Positions 1 to 47,120 of a DNA stretch of 64,000 bases are shown here, one piece after another (within the stretch, counting starts at the first letter, position 1; each line of letters starts with the position of its first letter). The stretch spans positions 744,001-808,000 of the forward strand of contig NZ_CP084266.1 in assembly GCF_022879595.1 (NCBI RefSeq), written 5' to 3'. The translations under genes and the position numbers were made by a program. This stretch comes from Caballeronia sp. Lep1P3 (lineage in GTDB: Bacteria; Pseudomonadota; Gammaproteobacteria; Burkholderiales; Burkholderiaceae). The notes beneath the pieces were generated by a model. That model saw only the letters and a list, made by a program, of their open reading frames with translations. It was not told where the DNA came from and did no database searches.

Positions 1-196
1 GAGGTTCAGGATTGCGCGCGACAGCGTGGACTTGCCGCAGCCCGATTCGCCGACGACGCCGAGCGTTTCGCCCGCGCGCAAGTCGAAGCTCACGCCGTCG
101 ACGGCTTTCAGGGTGCGCCCCGCCGCCCACGGCAAGCGGCTCTTCGCCTTCACCTTGAAATGCACGCGCATGTCGCGCACGGAGAGAATCGTTGCG

Positions 197-31577: not shown

Positions 31578-31677
31578 GCGCGGTGCCCTCCTTGCGTTTC
31601 GCCGCGCGCCGGATGCGAAAACCCCATGCGCGAAGCGGTCTGATGGTCGATAAAAGCGGGCATAATAACCCGGTCCG

Positions 31678-31840
31678 TCGGTGCCCGAAGGGAGCGATCC
31701 TCAGGGCCTAACAGGGAACACAGCGAAACTGTGGCTGCCCCCGCAATTGTACGCAGCGAGTCCGCGCTCCACTGCGACTGGTTTATACCGGGAAGGCCGG
31801 CGCGGGCGGCGACCTGCCAGCCAAGAGACCTGCCGACTCC
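31678..31840 (+). ncRNA. Cobalamin riboswitch upstream of cobG
   Basis: A coenzyme-B12 aptamer read on the plus strand. It begins with GGTGCCC, has the conserved AACAGGGAACACAGCGAAAC segment, GGCTGCCCCCGCAA, then GGGAAGGC, and ends with the B12-box-like GCCAGCCAAGAGACCTGCC. A hairpin over the cobG start region follows and could be the expression platform. High AdoCbl would be expected to switch the cobG operon off. Confidence 0.92.
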
Positions 31841-31865
31841 ACGTCTCAATGCATTATTCGCGCGA

Positions 31866-36909: not shown

Positions 36910-37844
36910 TCGCCGTTCTGCGAGTCGCCTGCCCCTGCTTCATGCCTTGCTTCATGACGCGGCGCTTCGCGCGAAGGCGCCTGCTGCTCGCGCCGCCGAT
37001 GCCGCAACACCGCATCCGCGACACATTCGACATGCTTCGTCTCGACATGCTCCGCGCCTTCGAGCGCGGCAAGCGCACGCGCCGCGCGCAGCATCACGAG
37101 ATCGGCGCGCAAGCCATCGACCTGTGCGGCGATGCATAGTTCGCTGACGCGCGCATGCACGTCGTCATCGAAATCGAACGAGTCGAGTGCAGCGCGCGCG
37201 GCGTCGATGCGTTCCGCGAGCGCGGCCTGGTTATCCGCGTGACCCTCTCGAAATACTTCGGGGTCCGTATCGAACGCAAGACGCGCCTTGACGATGCGCT
37301 GACGCACGCTCGCGTCGAAGCAATTGCTCAACTCGACGGCAAGCCCGAAGCGATCGAGCAATTGCGGACGCAGTTCGCCCTCTTCCGGATTCATCGTGCC
37401 GATGAGCACGAAACGCGCGTCATGGCGATGCGAAATGCCGTCGCGCTCGATGATGTTCACGCCGCTCGAAGCGACATCGAGCAATTGATCGACGAGCGGG
37501 TTCGGCAGCAAGTTCACTTCGTCGACATACAGCACGCCGCGATGCGCTTTCGCGAGCAGGCCCGGCGAGAACTTCACGCCGCCGTCGCGCAGCGCGCTTT
37601 GAATGTCGAGTGTGCCGATCAACTGCTCTTCGCTTGCGCCAAGCGGCAAAGTGACGAGCGTACCTTCGGGCAGCAGTTCGGCAAGCGCGCGCGCCGCCGT
37701 GGATTTCGCGGTGCCGCGCGGCCCGCTGACGAGCACGCCACCGAGCGACGGATCGACGGCCGCGAGCAGCAGCGCTTGTTGCAGCGGCGCCTGCCCGACG
37801 AGGGCGGTGAAAGGAAACGCTGGAAATAAAGAGGTTTCGTTCAA
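36831..37844 (-). CDS. AAA+ chelatase subunit (ChlI/BchI-type, CobS role)
   Basis: 337-residue AAA+ ATPase. Walker A GPRGTAKST is at 41-49, GVLYVDEVNLLPNPLVDQLL is the Walker B region of magnesium-chelatase subunit I, and ARFVLIGTMNPEEGELRPQLLDRFGL is the sensor segment. The C-terminus is His/Arg-rich (EAPRHEARHEAG). The start is a TTG (MNETSLFPAFPF) overlapping the cobN stop codon, with GAAGG upstream; no ATG fits. Sited between cobN and a VWA gene, it most likely powers cobalt rather than magnesium insertion. Confidence 0.87.
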   Translation of the reverse strand: MNETSLFPAFPFTALVGQAPLQQALLLAAVDPSLGGVLVSGPRGTAKSTAARALAELLPEGTLVTLPLGASEEQLIGTLDIQSALRDGGVKFSPGLLAKAHRGVLYVDEVNLLPNPLVDQLLDVASSGVNIIERDGISHRHDARFVLIGTMNPEEGELRPQLLDRFGLAVELSNCFDASVRQRIVKARLAFDTDPEVFREGHADNQAALAERIDAARAALDSFDFDDDVHARVSELCIAAQVDGLRADLVMLRAARALAALEGAEHVETKHVECVADAVLRHRRREQQAPSREAPRHEARHEAGAGDSQNGDWGYLPPEPAGAAKLKRVRPLATKKA

Positions 37845-40800
37845 GTCTGTCGGCCTTCGAGTTGCTGTTCGACATCGAACAGATGCCGCGTGACGGCCTC
37901 GCGATAAACGCCCGGCTCTTGCCACAAGCCTCGCTCCATCGCTTCGAGCAGGCGCTCGCAGATAGACTGAAGCGCATGAGGATTGTGTTGCGCGATGAAG
38001 TCGCGCGTGCCGGCGTCGTTCACGTAAGCATCGGTCACGAGCGCGTATTGATGATCGGATACGACGCGCGCAGTGGCGTCGTAGCCAAAGAGATAGTCCA
38101 CCGTTGCAGCCAGTTCGGATGCGCCCTTGTAGCCATGCCGCTTGATGCCGTCGATCCATTTCGGATTGACGACGCGCGAACGCACCACGCGCGCGATTTC
38201 TTCGTTGAGCGTGCGCACGCGCGGCGAAGCGGGATTGCTGTGATCCGCGTTGTACGCCTGCGGCTGAAGCCCCGAAAGGTAACGCACCGCCGAAACCATG
38301 CCACCCTGAAACTGGTGATAGTCGTTCGAATCGAGCAGGTCGTGCTCACGATTGTCCTGGTTCTGCAGCACGACATCGAGCGTGGAAAGGCGCGCGCCGA
38401 AGCTCGCGCGCGCTTCCATGCCATCGCCGTTCTGCGAATACGCATAACCGCCCGTGCTTTGATACGCCTCGGACAAGTCGGCATCGGTGTGCCACTGCTT
38501 CTGATCGATGAGTTCCTGCAAGCCCGCGCCGTATGCACCGGGCTTGCTGCTAAAAACACGCCAGCCCGCGCGACGTCGCGCCTCTTTCGCATCGACGCCA
38601 CGGCCCATCAGTTCATCGCGCTCGCGCAAGATGCGCGCGCGTATCGGGTTCACGTCCTCCGGTTCGTCGTCGAGATCCGCGACGGCTTGCACGGCGGCAT
38701 CGAAGAGATGCATGAGGTTCGCGAACGCATCGCGAAAGAAGCCGGATACACGCAAGGTCACATCGATGCGAGGCCGGTTGAAGATGGAGACCGGCAGAAT
38801 TTCGAAGTCCGTCACGCGATGACTGCCCGCCGCCCACTTGGGCCGCACGCCGATGAGCGCGAACGCCTGCGCGATATCGTCGCCGCCGGTACGCATCGTC
38901 GCCGTGCCCCATACGGACAGGCCGATTGCGCGCGGATAATCGCCATGATCCTGCACATGCCGTTCCACGAGCATGTTCGCGGACTTGAGCCCGAGCGACC
39001 ACGCCGCTTGCGTCGGCAAGGCGCGCGTATCGACCGAATAGAAATTGCGGCCCGTGGGCAACACATCGGGCCTGCCGCGCGATGGCGAACCGCTCGGTCC
39101 AGGCGGCACGAAGCGACCTTCGAGTCCGCGCTTCAACTGCATCGACTCTTGCGGGCCGCATGCGTCGAGGCGCGCAAGAACATCGTTACGCAAGCGCTGC
39201 AGCACGAGCGCAGTACGCGGGCCGGGCGTATCCGCATTGCCCGCTATGATCTGCGCTGCAAGCGCTTCGAGCCGCTCGCGCGTGTCGCCATGATGACGCC
39301 ACGGCCCGTCGATGGCGGCTTCCAGTACTTGCGGGCGCGGGCCGTTCCATGTTGCGGACCAGTCGGCATCGAGCGGATCGAAGGCATCGCCGAGTTCCAG
39401 ATCACGCGCAAGCGCCGCGATGAGACTCGCGTTCGCACCCTGCCCGTCGCCTGTCGGAAAGCGTCCGAGCGCGAGCAGCGTATCGCGGCGCTGCGCGCCT
39501 TGCGGCGATACGCCGAATATGTGAAGCCCGTCGCGTATCTGCGCTTCCTTGAGCTCGCAGAGATATGCATCGGCGCGCGTGAGCAACGCGTCTTCGCCAG
39601 CCGCATCGCGCGGCGCGGCGAAGCCGAGTTCTTCGTGCAGCCTGTTTTCGACGATGCTCGCGAGGATCGACTTGCGCAGCAGCTTCGCGCGGCGATGATC
39701 GACCATCAATGCTTCGTAGTACTCGTCAACCTGACGCTCCAGATCCTGCAATGGCCCGTAGTTCTCCGCGCGCGTGAGCGGCGGCATCAGATGATCGATG
39801 ATGACCGCCTGTGCCCGCCGCTTCGCCTGACTGCCCTCGCCCGGATCGTTGACGATGAACGGATAGAGATGCGGCATCGGACCGAGAATGAGATCGGGCC
39901 AGCATGAGGCCGATAGCGCGACGCTCTTTCCCGGCAGCCATTCGAGGTTGCCGTGCTTGCCGACATGCACGAGCGCATCGGCATTGAAGCGCTTGCGCAG
40001 CCAGATGTAGAACGCGAGATACGAATGCGGCGGCACGAGTTCGGCGTCGTGATAGCTCGCGTAGTCGTTGCGCTCGCGCGAACGCGACGGCTGAATGCCG
40101 ACGAACACCTGACCACAACGCAAGCCCGCGATCATGAACCGGCCGCGTCTCACCGTTGGGTCTTGCTCGGGCGCGCCCCATGTTTTTTCGAGCGCGGCGC
40201 GCGCGTCCGCAGGCAGCGTTCGATACGCGTCGAGATATTCGTCGAGCGACAGGCTCTGAAGCGCAGGCCGCAGATCGCGCACCACGGGATCGTTCGTCAC
40301 GCCCTGCGTGAGCGCGGCGATGAGCGCATCGCCATGCGGCGGAATATCGCCTGTCCGATAGCCCTCGCTCGCGAGCATCGACAAGATGCCGACCGCCGAT
40401 GCGGGCGTGTCGAGTCCCACGCCATTGCCAATGCGCCCTTCGCTTGCCGGATAGTTCGCGAGCACGAGCGCGATGCGCTTGTCCGCGTTGGGCGTATGCC
40501 GCAGCGCGCACCAGCGCCGGCTCAGTTGAGCGACGAAGCTCACGCGCTCGGCATCGGCCTGATAGCGCACGACGTCCACCTGCGTATGCACACAGCGATA
40601 CGCGAGGCCTTTGAAACTCACTGCGCGCGTGATGATGCGGCCATCGACTTCGGGCAACGCGACATGCATCGCGACATCGCGCGAATTGAGGCCGTGATTG
40701 TCCTTCTCCCAGTCATCGCGATTACCGCCGCTCAGAATGACTTGCAGCACGGGCGCGTCGCCCGCGACTTCGAATGCCTCGCTTTCGCCGATCACGCCCG

Positions 40801-41614
40801 CAGCGAACGCCGTCGTGTTCAGCACGAGCGACGCGCGATGCTGGGCGCACAGTCGCTCGACCACTTCGCGGCTCACGCTGTCCTTCAGCGACGAAATCGC
40901 GACGGGCAGTGGATTCAGGCCTTCTTTTTCGAGTGATTCGATGATCGCGTCGAACACCGCCGTATTACCGGACTGCAAATGCGCGCGATAAAACAGGACC
41001 GCGACGACGGGCGCACCCTCGGTCCAACGCGCGCGCCAGTCGTCGATGACTGCGATCTCGCGCTCGGGGTGATAGATCGCGACGGCAGGAAGCGGGCCTG
41101 GCGGTTGCGGCTCGCGTCCGAAGCCGAATGCGCGATGACCGATCGCGCGCAAGAACTCTTCCGCATTGCGCGCGCCGCCTTCGCGCAAATAGCGCGACAG
41201 TGCGCGGCAAAACGCGGCATCAACCGTGCTCTTGCTGATGAGATTCGGGTCTTCGGTGAGATCGCCCGAGAACATGGCGAGCAATTGATTCTCGCTTCTT
41301 GCAAGCGATACAAGACGTTCGATGCCGTAAGGCCAATACGATTCGCCGCCAAGATGATCGACGATCACGACCTTCGCATGACGCAGCACATCGTCGATAT
41401 AGAAGTCGACGGACGCTGGCTGACGCAGAAAGGACTGGTTCACGAGCCGCACTTCCGGGAAGCCCGCTTCCAGGCGCGGAAACACGCTTGCAAGCAGCGC
41501 GAGCGTGGTGTCGGCGGAACTGAGTATGACAATCGGCGCGCGCGTCTGATCGATTCGTATGACGCCCGCAGCGTCATCGACGAAACGGCCCGGTGTGGTG
41601 CGTAGCAGATGCAT
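37841..41614 (-). CDS. cobN: Cobaltochelatase large subunit CobN
   Basis: 1257-residue tetrapyrrole-binding subunit, normal length for CobN. It begins MHLLRTTPGRFVDDAAGVI, and contains VHVGKHGNLEWLPGKSVALS, the H-subunit signature, and near the C-terminus QNQDNREHDLLDSNDYHQFQGGM. It inserts Co2+ into hydrogenobyrinic acid a,c-diamide with an AAA+/VWA pair. The start lies 5 nt after cobW. The frame is open further upstream, but that region is cobW coding on the same strand. Confidence 0.95.
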   Translation of the reverse strand: MHLLRTTPGRFVDDAAGVIRIDQTRAPIVILSSADTTLALLASVFPRLEAGFPEVRLVNQSFLRQPASVDFYIDDVLRHAKVVIVDHLGGESYWPYGIERLVSLARSENQLLAMFSGDLTEDPNLISKSTVDAAFCRALSRYLREGGARNAEEFLRAIGHRAFGFGREPQPPGPLPAVAIYHPEREIAVIDDWRARWTEGAPVVAVLFYRAHLQSGNTAVFDAIIESLEKEGLNPLPVAISSLKDSVSREVVERLCAQHRASLVLNTTAFAAGVIGESEAFEVAGDAPVLQVILSGGNRDDWEKDNHGLNSRDVAMHVALPEVDGRIITRAVSFKGLAYRCVHTQVDVVRYQADAERVSFVAQLSRRWCALRHTPNADKRIALVLANYPASEGRIGNGVGLDTPASAVGILSMLASEGYRTGDIPPHGDALIAALTQGVTNDPVVRDLRPALQSLSLDEYLDAYRTLPADARAALEKTWGAPEQDPTVRRGRFMIAGLRCGQVFVGIQPSRSRERNDYASYHDAELVPPHSYLAFYIWLRKRFNADALVHVGKHGNLEWLPGKSVALSASCWPDLILGPMPHLYPFIVNDPGEGSQAKRRAQAVIIDHLMPPLTRAENYGPLQDLERQVDEYYEALMVDHRRAKLLRKSILASIVENRLHEELGFAAPRDAAGEDALLTRADAYLCELKEAQIRDGLHIFGVSPQGAQRRDTLLALGRFPTGDGQGANASLIAALARDLELGDAFDPLDADWSATWNGPRPQVLEAAIDGPWRHHGDTRERLEALAAQIIAGNADTPGPRTALVLQRLRNDVLARLDACGPQESMQLKRGLEGRFVPPGPSGSPSRGRPDVLPTGRNFYSVDTRALPTQAAWSLGLKSANMLVERHVQDHGDYPRAIGLSVWGTATMRTGGDDIAQAFALIGVRPKWAAGSHRVTDFEILPVSIFNRPRIDVTLRVSGFFRDAFANLMHLFDAAVQAVADLDDEPEDVNPIRARILRERDELMGRGVDAKEARRRAGWRVFSSKPGAYGAGLQELIDQKQWHTDADLSEAYQSTGGYAYSQNGDGMEARASFGARLSTLDVVLQNQDNREHDLLDSNDYHQFQGGMVSAVRYLSGLQPQAYNADHSNPASPRVRTLNEEIARVVRSRVVNPKWIDGIKRHGYKGASELAATVDYLFGYDATARVVSDHQYALVTDAYVNDAGTRDFIAQHNPHALQSICERLLEAMERGLWQEPGVYREAVTRHLFDVEQQLEGRQT

Positions 41615-41619
41615 TGCGC

Positions 41620-42699
41620 TTAAGCCTGCGCGAGCGCGTTGGCAAGCGCTGCGTCGAATGCGGCCTGCAGCGTTTGCGTATCGAGTCCCTCGCCGATCAG
41701 CACGAAGCGGCTTTCTGCCTCGCCTTGGCGCCAACGCCTGTCGAAATAGCTGTCGAAGCGCCGTCCCACGCCCTGCACGACGAGGCGCATGGCCGCGCCC
41801 GGCAGCGCGGCGAACCCTTTCACGCGATAGATCGTGTGGTGCTCGACGAGCGTATGCAATGCGGCAATCGCTTGCTCGCGCGATTCGATATGCGCTGCAA
41901 CGACGACCGAATCGAACTCGTCGTGATGATGATCCGCGTGGCCTTCATCGTCCGCGGAACCGTGATGATCCTGCCGCAAATGAATGGTCTCTTCCGACGC
42001 CGATTGCAGGCCGAGCAACGCATGGACGTCGAGCTTGCCCATTTGCGCGGGGACGATCTTCACTTCGGGCGGAATCTCCGGACGCACGAGCGCTTCGACC
42101 GATCGCCACGCGTCTTCATTCATCAGGTCCATCTTGTTGACGATGACGAGGTCTGCCGAGGCAAGCTGATCCTCGAATAACTCGTGCAGCGGCGATTCGT
42201 GATCCAGATTCGGATCGGCCCTGCGCTGCGCATCGACGGCTTGCGGGTTCGCGGCGAACTGTCCGCTCGCGGCGGCGGGACCATCGACCACGGTGATGAC
42301 CGCATCGACGGTGAACGCATTCTTGATGGACGGCCAGTTGAACGCCTGCACGAGCGGCTTGGGCAAGGCAAGGCCCGACGTTTCGATGAGGACGTGATCG
42401 ATGCGCTCGCGCCGTTCGAGCAACTGCTCCATCACCGGATAGAACGCCTCCTGCACCGTGCAGCACAGGCACCCGTTTGCAAGCTCATACAGATTGCGGT
42501 CCGACGATGCCGCTTCGTCGTCGCAGCCGATGCCGCAGCCCTTGAGGATTTCGCCATCGATGCCGAGCTCGCCGAACTCGTTGACGATTACAGCGAGACG
42601 CAAGCCTTGCGCGTTCGCGAGGATATGACGCATGAGGGTTGTCTTGCCGCTGCCGAGAAAGCCTGTCACCACCGTGACGGGAATCTTGCGGGTTTGCAT
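41620..42699 (-). CDS. cobW: CobW-type GTPase metallochaperone
   Basis: 359-residue G3E GTPase. The P-loop GFLGSGKT is at 13-20, the metal site GCLCC near 80, ETSGLALP is switch-like, and NKMD is the base-recognition motif. A His/Asp-rich loop (HHGSADDEGHADHHHDE) precedes the C-terminal CobW_C domain. The ATG follows GGAGCTACG; an ATG six codons upstream lacks a site. It probably delivers cobalt to CobN, the next gene. A cobalamin riboswitch lies about 140 nt upstream. Confidence 0.93.
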   Translation of the reverse strand: MQTRKIPVTVVTGFLGSGKTTLMRHILANAQGLRLAVIVNEFGELGIDGEILKGCGIGCDDEAASSDRNLYELANGCLCCTVQEAFYPVMEQLLERRERIDHVLIETSGLALPKPLVQAFNWPSIKNAFTVDAVITVVDGPAAASGQFAANPQAVDAQRRADPNLDHESPLHELFEDQLASADLVIVNKMDLMNEDAWRSVEALVRPEIPPEVKIVPAQMGKLDVHALLGLQSASEETIHLRQDHHGSADDEGHADHHHDEFDSVVVAAHIESREQAIAALHTLVEHHTIYRVKGFAALPGAAMRLVVQGVGRRFDSYFDRRWRQGEAESRFVLIGEGLDTQTLQAAFDAALANALAQA

Positions 42700-42839
42700 C
42701 GTAGCTCCGTGGCTCATGTATGCGTGCGCCGTGCATCGCGCGATGAGTGAATCGCAAGCGAACGACCGGACTGGAATTGCGCACGACTTAGTGGATCGTG
42801 GTCCGTGCCGCCTCCCCGCGGCATCGGGCCCTGCGTAGT

Positions 42840-43060
42840 TTGGCCGGTATCCGGGCTGGCGACATCATTGCGCGGCCTTCCTGCCGTATGACCGACAGTG
42901 GCGCGGTGCGTAATGCGCGGCATTCGATGCGTGAATGCCGCTAGTCGCTTACCGTTGCGGGGGCAGCGCAGGTTGGCGTTCGTCCGTTCGCATGAACACG
43001 CGAGACGCTTCCTGCTTCCCGTTTGACTGCGCGCGAAAGACATCGCGCGCGAGCACCAAA
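42840..43060 (-). ncRNA. Cobalamin riboswitch upstream of cobW
   Basis: Minus-strand B12 aptamer. Reading 5' to 3': GGTGCTCGCGCG, AACGGGAAGCAGGAAG, GCTGCCCCCGCAACGGTAAG, CCACTG, GGAAGGCCGCGC, then GCCAGCCCGGATACCGGCC. Downstream, TGCCGC-GGGGAG-GCGGCA forms a small hairpin holding a Shine-Dalgarno-like loop. It should repress cobW-cobN and the chelatase genes when B12 is abundant. Confidence 0.92.
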
Positions 43061-43070
43061 ACTGCGTGGA

Positions 43071-43099
43071 AGTCTAGGCTGCGCGTGAACGAGCGTCAA
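43071..43099 (-). promoter_or_regulatory. Sigma-70-type promoter for the cobW transcript
   Basis: On the minus strand TTGACG and TAGACT are 17 bp apart. Transcription would start just before the GGTGCTC that opens the riboswitch, which supports the call. Confidence 0.6.
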
Positions 43100-43146
43100 G
43101 AAAGCCGATACCGATATAAGGTGCATGTGTTATCTTTTGCCCGCGT

Positions 43147-43363
43147 CTGGTGCTCGCGCGTTCACACGCAACGCGCAGTTAAACGGGAAACAGGAAGCCG
43201 CCTCTTCAGTTCGCGAAGAACGCGCGCCAGCCTGTGCTGTCCCCGCAACGGTACGCGACTGGCGGCACGCATCGTTGCGATGCCGCGCATCGTGCTTCAC
43301 GCCACTGCCGGTCATCAGGCGGGAAGGCCGCGCGATGAAGTCGCAAGCCCGGATACCGGCCAG
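43147..43363 (+). ncRNA. Cobalamin riboswitch upstream of cobE
   Basis: Plus-strand B12 aptamer nearly identical to the divergent one. Elements in order: GGTGCTCGCGCG, AAACGGGAAACAGGAAG, GCTGTCCCCGCAACGGTACG, GCCACTGCCGG, GGGAAGGCCGCGC and AAGCCCGGATACCGGCC. It precedes cobE-cobO-cobB. A TATAAG box about 30 nt upstream may be its promoter. Confidence 0.92.
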
Positions 43364-43372
43364 CGCAGGGGA

Positions 43373-43407
43373 CGAAACGCAAAGCATGCAACACCGCATG
43401 CGTTTCG
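43373..43407 (+). promoter_or_regulatory. Hairpin between riboswitch and cobE
   Basis: CGAAAC + GCATGC pair with GCATGC + GTTTCG around an AACACC-type loop, with a 5-nt bulge. It lies between the aptamer and the start codon and may be the expression platform. Confidence 0.45.
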
Positions 43408-43435
43408 CCGAACGCCGCGCATCCGCGAGGGACGC

Positions 43436-43831
43436 ATGCACGGCGCCAAGCTTCTCGTTCAGTGCAAATCAATGGAGTCTCATCGCGCGCGGCCGCCTGG
43501 ACTTGCAGTCGGCATCGGCTGCAAACGCGGCGTGAGCGCCGAAGCGATAGAAACGGCCGTGCACATCGCGCTTCGATCTTCAGGGCTTGCGTTCGCGGAT
43601 ATCGCGTGCGTCGCGAGCATCGACATCAAGCAGGATGAAGCGGGCTTGCGCGCGTTTTGCGAGCGTCATCGCCTGCCCTTGAGTTTCTATGGCGCCGACG
43701 ACATCGCCCCCACTCTGCTCGATGGCGTATGCGAGCCTTGCGCGCTGCTCGCAAGCGATGGCGGGCGGTTAGCCGTGCGCAAGACGATCGCGGGCGGCGT
43801 CACGGTCGCCATTGCAGTGAACGAAGCATGA
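43436..43831 (+). CDS. cobE: CobE/CbiG C-terminal-domain protein
   Basis: 131-residue protein matching the CbiG C-terminal/CobE family: GLAVGIGCKRGVSAEAIETAV and FADIACVASIDIKQDEAGL, then LASDGGRLAVRKTI. The ATG used has GAGGGACGC directly upstream; another ATG 12 codons later is possible. CobE is needed for B12 synthesis in pseudomonads but its exact step is unsettled. Here the N-terminal CbiG half is fused to CobJ about 7 kb away, so the two CbiG halves are encoded separately. Confidence 0.85.
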   Translation: MHGAKLLVQCKSMESHRARPPGLAVGIGCKRGVSAEAIETAVHIALRSSGLAFADIACVASIDIKQDEAGLRAFCERHRLPLSFYGADDIAPTLLDGVCEPCALLASDGGRLAVRKTIAGGVTVAIAVNEA

Positions 43832-43847
43832 ACGACACGAAAAGCCC

Positions 43848-44450
43848 ATGAAAACCGATACCGAATCGCATCTGCGCATGACGCAGCGTCGCAAGGAAGG
43901 CCACGAGAAGAAGCAGGCCGCCGCCGATCACGAGAAGGGCTTGCTGATCGTCAATACGGGCAACGGCAAGGGCAAGACCACAGCCGCGTTCGGCATGGCC
44001 GTGCGCGTGCTCGGCCACGGCATGAAGCTCGGCGTCGTGCAGTTCATCAAGGGCGCGCTGCATACGTCCGAACGCGATGTCCTGAGCGCGATGGCGAAGT
44101 GCGATTTCGTCACGATGGGCGACGGCTATACGTGGAATACGCAGAACCGCGAAGCCGACATGGCGACCGCGCGCAAGGGCTGGAGCGAAGCGCGTCGCAT
44201 GATAGAAAGCGGCGCGTATCAGATGGTCGTGCTTGATGAACTCAACACGGTCCTCAAATACGACTATCTGCCGCTAGACGAAGTGCTCGATGTGCTGAAG
44301 GCGCGCCCCGCGATGCTGCATGTGGTCGTTACGGGCCGTCATGCGCCGGATGCGCTCGTCGAGTTGGCCGACCTCGTCACCGAGATGCGGCTCGTGAAAC
44401 ATCCCTATCGCGAGCAAGGCGTGAAGGCGCAACGCGGCGTCGAGTTCTGA
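43848..44450 (+). CDS. cobO: Corrinoid adenosyltransferase
   Basis: 200-residue BtuR/CobO/CobA-type ATP:co(I)rrinoid adenosyltransferase. The P-loop NTGNGKGKTTAAFG is near residue 42, WNTQNREADMATARKGW and YQMVVLDELNTVLKYDYL are family motifs, and VVTGRHAPDALVELADLVTEM closes the fold. It attaches the 5'-deoxyadenosyl ligand to cobalt. Spaced 16 nt from cobE and 4 nt from cobB, so one transcript. Confidence 0.95.
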   Translation: MKTDTESHLRMTQRRKEGHEKKQAAADHEKGLLIVNTGNGKGKTTAAFGMAVRVLGHGMKLGVVQFIKGALHTSERDVLSAMAKCDFVTMGDGYTWNTQNREADMATARKGWSEARRMIESGAYQMVVLDELNTVLKYDYLPLDEVLDVLKARPAMLHVVVTGRHAPDALVELADLVTEMRLVKHPYREQGVKAQRGVEF

Positions 44451-44454
44451 CACG

Positions 44455-45753
44455 ATGCCTGACTGTCCCGCACTTTTCATCGGCGCGAGCGCGTCGCATC
44501 AAGGCAAGACGACGGTAACGGCCGCGCTCGCTCGCCATCACACGCGGCAGGGCCGGCGCGTGCGCGTCTTCAAGACCGGGCCGGATTTTCTCGACCCGAT
44601 GATTCTCGAACGCGCATGCGGATCGCCCGTCTATTCGCTGCATCTTTCGATGGTGGGCCTCGATGCATGCCGCGCGTTGCTTGCAAAGGCCGCGCGCGAT
44701 GCGGACCGGATCCTGATCGAAGGCGTCATGGGCCTTTTCGATGGCACGCCCAGCAGCGCGGATCTTGCCGCCGCGTTCAACGTGCCCGTGCTCGCCGTGA
44801 TCGGCGCGCATGGCATGGCGCAAACCTTCGGCGCAGTGGCATTCGGGCTTGCGCGTTATCGCGCGGATGTTCCGTTTCATGGCGTGCTCGCTAATCGCGT
44901 TGCCTCGCCGCGTCATGCCGACATGCTCGCGCAAGCCATTCCCGAAGGCATTCGCTATTGCGGACATCTTTCGAATGCAGACGATATGACGCTGCCGGAG
45001 CGGCATCTCGGCATCACACAGGCACAGGAGATCGCGGGGCTCGATGCGCGTCTCGATCGCGCGGCCGATGCCATCGCCCAGACCGCGCTTGCAGAACTTC
45101 CGCCGCCTGTTCGCTTCGAAGACGCGACGCTCGAAGCGCCGCCGCGTCTGCTCAATGGGCTGCATATCGCTATCGCGCGCGATGCCGCGTTCTCGTTCAT
45201 CTATCCCGCCAACGTCGATTTGCTGAGAACGCTGGGCGCACGCATCAGCACCTTCTCGCCGCTTGCCGATGAACCCGTTCCCGCCGACGCCGACGCGCTC
45301 TATCTTCCCGGCGGTTATCCGGAACTGCACGCGGCGACGCTCGCATCGAACGCGCGCACGCGGGCATCGATTGCCATGCATGTCGCGAACGAACGCGTTG
45401 TCGTGGCGGAATGCGGAGGCATGCTCTATCTCCTCGATTCGCTCATCGATGTGGAAGGCGTGCGCCATGGCATGCTTGGGATGCTGCCCGGCAACGCATC
45501 GATGCAGCGGCGTCTCGCGCGTCTCGCGATGCAGCGGCTCGATTCATCGCACGGCCCGCTCATGGGTCACACGTTCCACTATTCCACGCTGGAAACGACG
45601 ATGCAGCCGATGCTCATCGCCAGGCACGCGACCACGCATACCGAAGGCGAAGCGCTTTATCGGCAAGGCAAGATCACAGCCACTTATATGCACGCTTACT
45701 GGCCGTCGAATCCGGCGGCAGCCGCAGCCCTCTTTCGCGGCGAACCGCTATGA
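44455..45753 (+). CDS. cobB: Cobyrinic acid a,c-diamide synthase (hydrogenobyrinate form)
   Basis: 432-residue ATP- and glutamine-dependent amidase. The N-terminal dethiobiotin-synthetase-like domain has GASASHQGKTTVTAAL and KTGPDFLDPMI. The C-terminal class I-like amidotransferase has LPGGYPELHA and the nucleophile Cys in VAECGGMLYLLDS, with the later His in GHTFHYSTLE. It amidates the a and c carboxylates before cobalt insertion. Its stop codon overlaps the next ATG. Confidence 0.94.
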   Translation: MPDCPALFIGASASHQGKTTVTAALARHHTRQGRRVRVFKTGPDFLDPMILERACGSPVYSLHLSMVGLDACRALLAKAARDADRILIEGVMGLFDGTPSSADLAAAFNVPVLAVIGAHGMAQTFGAVAFGLARYRADVPFHGVLANRVASPRHADMLAQAIPEGIRYCGHLSNADDMTLPERHLGITQAQEIAGLDARLDRAADAIAQTALAELPPPVRFEDATLEAPPRLLNGLHIAIARDAAFSFIYPANVDLLRTLGARISTFSPLADEPVPADADALYLPGGYPELHAATLASNARTRASIAMHVANERVVVAECGGMLYLLDSLIDVEGVRHGMLGMLPGNASMQRRLARLAMQRLDSSHGPLMGHTFHYSTLETTMQPMLIARHATTHTEGEALYRQGKITATYMHAYWPSNPAAAAALFRGEPL

Positions 45754-46961: not shown

Positions 46962-47004
46962 TGAATTTCTCCAGGGGAAAAGCGCGTCCCGATAGACGAA
47001 GAGC

Positions 47005-47108
47005 TTGCAGCGGGGTCTGACTCGCGGGCCGTGTCATTGACGACGAACCGCTTACAGTGGCGCGACCGTGCCGGGTTTGCACCGGCTTCCTCGCATTGCA
47101 AGCTTGCC
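47005..47108 (-). ncRNA. Cobalamin riboswitch upstream of cbtBA
   Basis: Minus-strand aptamer of the compact type: GAGGAAGCCGGTGCAAACC, GGCACGGTCGCGCCACTGT, and GAGTCAGACCCCGC near the 3' end. It differs in layout from the other three in the window but shares the core. A TAGAAT -10-like box lies just 5' of it. It should lower cobalt import when B12 is plentiful. Confidence 0.88.
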
Positions 47109-47120
47109 ATTCTATGATGA

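Follow-up and report, generated by a model that had tools for sequence, protein, structure and literature searches.

Two-part likeness of a cobalamin riboswitch in a divergent Caballeronia pair suggests partial gene conversion

Here, we describe two cobalamin riboswitches that stand back to back in a Caballeronia cobalamin gene cluster, one in front of cobW and the other in front of a cobE-like gene, and find that the pair is old while the cobW-side aptamer has a two-part likeness, its 5' half resembling its own orthologues and its 3' half resembling the riboswitch next to it. The reading we favor, and hold to be probable, is that partial gene conversion from the cobE-side to the cobW-side copy in the ancestor of one Caballeronia clade made a hybrid aptamer within an old divergent pair, and that both RNAs repress their operons in response to B12.

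Two aptamers on divergent transcripts

The stretch of DNA analyzed, 64,000 nucleotides long and hereafter the window, is part of contig C2 of a 6.18-Mb genome, and its nearest related loci are those of Caballeronia. Within its cobalamin gene cluster, cobW and cobN run left, and a CbiG-like gene, for which we keep the name cobE given in an earlier sequence-only reading, runs right with cobO and cobB. A cmscan search with RF00174 at the gathering threshold (31.5 bits) matched both strands between these genes, placing one full-length aptamer above the gathering score in the 5' leader of each set of cobalamin synthesis genes, as the sequence-only reading had proposed. We refer to the cobW-side aptamer as W, the cobE-side aptamer as E, and a third, btuB-side aptamer elsewhere in the genome as B. 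The features of the locus are as follows.

37841-41734, minus strand: cobN, cobaltochelatase subunit, next in the W operon (TIGR02257, 1565 bits, over cut-off)
41620-42699, minus strand: cobW (TIGR02475, 471 bits, cut-off 332), followed by cobN
42807-42822, minus strand: hairpin downstream of W (GCCGC GGGGAG GCGGC region), candidate expression platform
42825-43076, minus strand: W aptamer, cobalamin riboswitch (RF00174, 69.7 bits, E 3.8e-15, model positions 1-189 of 189)
43071-43099, minus strand: predicted sigma-70 promoter of the cobW operon (TTGACG-17-TAGACT)
43128-43136, plus strand: predicted extended -10 (TG-t-TATCTT) of the cobE operon promoter, read from the sequence
43130-43378, plus strand: E aptamer, cobalamin riboswitch (RF00174, 71.9 bits, E 9.1e-16, model positions 1-189 of 189)
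43370-43409, plus strand: hairpin downstream of E, candidate expression platform (RNAalifold, 8 sequences)
43436-43831, plus strand: cobE-like gene, resembling the C-terminal part of CbiG (CbiG-family matches below curated cut-offs)
43848-44450, plus strand: cobO, corrinoid adenosyltransferase (NF004637, 286 bits, and TIGR00708, 235 bits, both over cut-off)
44455-45753, plus strand: cobB, cobyrinic acid a,c-diamide synthase (NF002204, 425 bits, over cut-off)

W and E are identical at 190 of the 235 positions aligned (0.809, 81%) with a pairwise score of 102.7, where 200 mononucleotide shuffles gave a mean of -34.3 (sd 4.8, maximum -20), and the likeness weakens towards the aptamer ends. The two copies had been described as near-identical; they are alike, but 81% is not near-identity. 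Other parts of that description held up, as the four shared runs it quoted are present in both copies, the DNA does form an imperfect inverted repeat (arms of 143 nt at 80%, 27 nt at 93% and 13 nt at 100%), and the middle, put at roughly 90 nt, measures 91 nt between GGTGC anchors. A first MAFFT alignment of the aptamers misaligned W with E (0.668, against 0.809 pairwise) and mixed the orientations of loci L086-L115, and its identities were not used.

Both promoters are predicted to lie within about 90 bp. The cobW promoter is the sole promoter-like match in 42700-43500, where 0.2 would be expected, and the pattern TTGAC-16..19-TA(A/C/G)ACT recurs in 64/64 loci with both aptamers by pattern, a count that includes duplicates and for which no chance rate was computed. 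The putative cobE-side promoter has no clear -35 and was missed by a 9-of-12 promoter scan; its -10 reads TGnTATC in 9/9 rows of the window's Caballeronia clade (delimited below), and a loose TAT(C/T) pattern fits 64/64 loci.

Downstream of the aptamers, cobW starts at an ATG (42699-42697) with GGAG upstream, and the start region is kept in 9/9 clade rows; the cobE-like gene starts at 43436 with GAGGG upstream, and GAGGGACGCATG is present in 9/9 clade rows. These conserved Shine-Dalgarno-like motifs, together with the hairpins that lie between each aptamer and its start, would make translational control the likelier mode for both leaders, whose coding strands showed no intrinsic terminator. 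The W hairpin is without covariation support because its five outer pairs are invariant in 8/8 sequences, and the one case of covariation in the W-leader analysis falls in another stem. In the E hairpin, one pair has changed on both sides, one alternates between G-C and G-U, and six are broken in one sequence each (8 sequences). For a kissing loop between L5 and an expression-platform loop L13, hairpins are present downstream of both aptamers, and a search by eye established no partner.

By family, the W and E RNAs should sense adenosylcobalamin or related corrinoids, each most likely repressing its own operon when B12 is plentiful, probably through blocked translation initiation. The gene families on the two sides fit the earlier proposal of matched B12 control over chelation (cobW-cobN) and adenosylation/amidation (cobO, cobB).

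Mosaic of the cobW-side aptamer

When the aptamers are compared by halves, the 5' half of the window's W is W-type and the 3' half, covering the P6 accessory region (about 42948-42842), is E-type. Segment identities, a breakpoint scan and sequence types together delimit a putative tract.

42842-42948, minus strand: inferred gene-conversion tract in W, E-type, comprising the P6 accessory region and the 3' end

The limits of this tract are approximate, its 5' breakpoint being estimated after 42949 and its 3' limit being the end of the compared segment. When positions of the window's W were permuted in the breakpoint scan, the two-block value of the real order was equalled or exceeded 22 times in 5000, though adjacent positions depend on one another. 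Within-locus W-E identity in the 3' half is 0.75-0.83 in nine clade loci (8 genomes; L007 and L092 carry identical cobW) versus 0.47-0.64 in the 50 loci outside the clade, which hold 42 distinct pairs, and the two ranges stay apart. In the 5' half the two ranges overlap, at 0.66-0.74 and 0.57-0.76 respectively.

Beyond CCCCGCAACGGTAAGCGA, the 3' half of W comes in two kinds. The W form, which typically ends GGGAAGGCGAAGCGGC...TCGTCAGCCCGG, occurs in Paraburkholderia, Burkholderia, Trinickia and most Caballeronia, and the E form in the window and its closest relatives. Among 111 W aptamers recovered, 94 are W-type, 3 are a near variant and 14 are E-type (65, 3 and 8 of 76 distinct sequences), the 14 E-type loci representing 8 distinct genomes; 16 of 127 cobW loci gave no W by pattern and were left unclassified. 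Strict patterns had found both aptamers in 18 of 126 loci, and loosened ones were used for these counts. The W signature is present in 0/65 E aptamers, for which "E-type" is the default label when that signature is absent. An ad hoc positive E signature matched 43 of the 65 but missed the window's own E, and was dropped.

The 3' halves of clade W aptamers are closest to the E aptamers of other clade members (means 0.73-0.79), ahead of other W aptamers (means 0.56-0.58, n=97, highest single values 0.64-0.71) and btuB-side aptamers (means 0.49-0.52, n=16). Since identity with the btuB-side aptamers reaches at most 0.56, the donor was not of that type. By identity, then, W is like E in its 3' half and like its own orthologues in its 5' half, the pattern sought for gene conversion. 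The RF00174 score is unharmed in the hybrid, at 69.7 bits for the window's W versus 69.1 and 68.8 for the unconverted W of L010 and L018.

The cobW gene tree (62 sequences) gives this pattern a direction. The E-type W loci form one clade with a support of 100, and symbiont species join it, likewise at 100; W was classified in two of these and is W-type in both. Farther out, the W aptamers of Paraburkholderia, Trinickia and Burkholderia are W-type. Some backbone nodes are poorly supported (22-55), and the deeper Caballeronia part is weak in places. Because the two classified symbiont W aptamers and those of the outer genera are W-type, the E-type state of W is derived.

A tree of whole aptamers, in which the window's two aptamers fall with the W and the E of the clade, respectively, misplaced long branches (the cobG type and genome G376) and left the mosaic invisible; it was replaced by separate trees of the two halves. 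The half-aptamer trees and tests used chosen subsets of 56 and 37 sequences with about 110 sites. In the 3'-half tree, clade W lies inside the E sequences, beside same-clade E, and clade W and E together are split from all other W in the set with a support of 99.9/100. Likelihood tests rejected clade W as one group within W for the 3' half (AU 0.036 and 0.040), with KH and SH not significant. For the 5' half, two topologies were unseparated at 5% (0.906 versus 0.094), and no tested group forms a clean split.

The same tests leave all-W monophyly of the 3' half unrejected (AU p 0.153; 0.363 and 0.238 in a second test set), as would be expected had there been no recombination, with clade W either converging on an E-like P6 accessory sequence or keeping an ancestral E-like state lost elsewhere. 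All-W monophyly can, however, be satisfied on an unrooted three-group tree by placing clade W between E and the other W aptamers, so that the topology tests favor conversion weakly and the case depends mostly on the gene tree and on identity ranges that do not overlap. Convergence would demand about 100 nt in the most variable part of the aptamer; PMC9600662, in the excerpt consulted, calls the P6 accessory region highly variable, and constraint would therefore not be expected to keep its sequence alike. Ancestral retention would require the E-like sequence to have been replaced in parallel in the W of Paraburkholderia, Burkholderia, Trinickia and the remaining Caballeronia, and the E-type clade is nested within the cobW tree. 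We consider either course unlikely.

A second alternative, that the hybrid W arrived by horizontal transfer from another species instead of from the neighboring E, seems less likely again. In its favor, the window's locus is on contig C2, and three Caballeronia records have theirs on large plasmid-type replicons, which may exchange DNA. Against transfer, the nearest sequences are same-clade E aptamers, the W promoter and 5' half are still W-type, and no hybrid lies outside the clade among the 111 W aptamers recovered, a sample short of every species.

Partial conversion within the locus, the reading we prefer, would have taken place in the ancestor of the window's Caballeronia clade, where about 100 nt of E, from the P6 accessory region to the 3' side of the core, would have replaced the W counterpart. 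The mechanism would be a single gene conversion between the inverted copies, and W would have retained its own 5' half and promoter.

Inside the clade, 26 of 720 pairings of six loci reach the observed same-genome mean in the 3' half (671 of 720 in the 5' half), and this slight same-genome excess is a hint only. A count of diagnostic sites in six clade members gave 0-3 exchanged sites per copy and was first read as showing no conversion; it is uninformative on the question because it is blind to an event older than all six members. As a separate observation, the P6 hairpin of E in L007, L090 and L093 has W-like arms (GGTATCGGCT...ATATCGC) that the E of L009 and L089 does not share, a hint that a second exchange, this time from W to E, may have followed later.

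Age of the pair and other RF00174 members

Both aptamers are present in 45 of 81 loci (the window and 80 related loci), from Caballeronia, Paraburkholderia and Burkholderia, and in two of the 45 (L060 and L077) they stand about 1 kb apart. By Rfam coordinates, 9 of 21 Caballeronia genomes have a divergent pair with a gap of under 400 nt, as do 4 of the 31 in the family sample (G000, G009, G011 and G020). The order sample gave 0 among its 40 other genomes and the phylum sample 1 of 49 (G376), both scored with stricter filters under which weak matches are lost. The pair is old and common to relatives in other genera; it would already have been present in the common ancestor of the examined Caballeronia, Paraburkholderia and Burkholderia loci, its aptamers mostly diverging since.

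Over the 45 pairs, mean identities of W with W (0.835) and of E with E (0.855) both exceed that of W with E. Taking the loci two at a time (990 pairs), the four aptamers group by orthology in 909 cases, by locus in 20 and crosswise in 61. W-E identity within a locus averages 0.755 (n=45), the same as between loci (0.758, n=1980), and general concerted evolution is therefore absent. The earlier suggestion of gene conversion between the copies is supported in part; among the W aptamers recovered, it applies to the 3' (P6 accessory) half of W in the window's clade only. The window's own pair ranks first of the 45 in within-locus identity (0.809), and same-locus grouping is favored in 9 of its 44 comparisons.

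Three further RF00174 members bring the genome-wide count to five.

31662-31851, plus strand: RF00174 aptamer before cobG, the strongest RF00174 match in the window
46992-47115, minus strand: RF00174 aptamer before cbtA (gene identified by Pfam PF09490, 273 bits), short and weak (34.4 bits, 124 nt)
Contig C1: RF00174 aptamer before a btuB-like gene (best gene family TIGR01779, below cut-off for a partial protein)

Overall identity is a poor guide to the origin of the pair in this company. In the window's genome the identities are 0.827 for W-B, 0.793 for E-B and 0.809 for W-E, with the cobG-side aptamer more distant (0.62-0.70), and same-genome means in the Caballeronia sample are 0.800 (n=17), 0.796 (n=6) and 0.773 (n=9), respectively. 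Because B, on another contig, is equally close to each, a high W-E identity is no proof of local duplication. A recent local duplication and inversion of one riboswitch unit, which would explain the inverted arms, the high W-E identity and the window's first rank among the 45 pairs by the youth of the copies, is the least credible history we considered, as it is contradicted by the orthologous pairs in Paraburkholderia and Burkholderia, by the orthologous grouping in 909 of 990 quartets, by 5' halves no more alike than elsewhere, and by the equal overall closeness of B. Duplication and inversion of one control unit, as the sequence-only reading suggested, is thus unsupported as a specific or recent event, the pair being ancient; an older local duplication behind it is neither shown nor excluded.

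Two observations concern the flanking members. Short RF00174 matches like the cbtA-side one recur near the cluster in several relatives. On the cobG side, the divergent cobL (CbiE/CbiT, minus strand, start 31577) has no RF00174 match on its strand, opposite the riboswitch-led cobG operon.

Related systems and gene context

W and E are alike other RF00174 aptamers in matching the full model, in their scores and in their cobalamin-gene context; W differs in that its P6 accessory half is like its neighbor's and not like its orthologues'. The divergent arrangement recurs independently in G376, a genome of the same phylum and another class, where two RF00174 copies (L188, 4902-5399) lie 68 nt apart and are 0.789 identical. 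That pair differs in its genes, which are a BtuB-like receptor one way and a DUF4198 protein with a CbiM cobalt transporter the other way. Ours is an ordinary riboswitch pair in a recurrent arrangement, whose uncommon feature is a W resembling a natural hybrid from partial conversion. Among the literature matches listed (titles and abstract beginnings), none concerns riboswitch gene conversion or the Burkholderiaceae pair, and the part of PMC545781 consulted has no bearing on either; classic surveys of B12 elements may already print the divergent arrangement.

Laboratory chimeric cobalamin riboswitches, as presented in the excerpt of PMC9600662, likewise join parts of different cobalamin riboswitches and address the role of the P6 accessory region; those were built, whereas the W hybrid would be natural. 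In tandem glycine riboswitches, according to an excerpt of PMC6944388, homologous aptamers are likewise paired, with conservation varying with gene context, but these act together in one arrangement, whereas W and E belong to two separate divergent transcripts. The W leader would offer a riboswitch domain exchanged by nature, for which relatives lacking the exchange could serve as controls, and a comparison of clade W leaders with other Caballeronia W leaders would be a direct test of what the variable P6 accessory region does. More broadly, likeness of adjacent riboswitches can stem from partial copying as well as from common descent or constraint, and detecting it takes a comparison segment by segment. 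A more speculative idea, which we rate as doubtful, is that inverted pairs act as a natural workshop in which repeated copying of the P6 accessory region, still going on slowly in the clade, brings one operon's corrinoid selectivity or response into line with its neighbor's.

Gene content beside the pair also varies. In a neighborhood table covering 65 of the 81 loci, cobA (SUMT, uroporphyrinogen-III C-methyltransferase) is nearby, in the E-side operon, in all 37 loci with a W-type (35) or variant (2) W and an E by pattern. In the five loci with a hybrid W, E is present and cobA is missing beside it, the place in the window being 43379-43436. A further 19 loci have neither cobA nor E by pattern, their cobE-cobO-cobB apparently being left without its riboswitch. 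Three loci (L060, L067 and L081) have cobA and no E by pattern; Rfam finds E in L081 and none in L067. It also finds W alone in the pair region of L010, L013 and L018. In the window's genome, two cobA-like genes (48% and 43% identical) lie beyond the window itself, whose own two weaker cobA matches are corrin methyltransferase genes.
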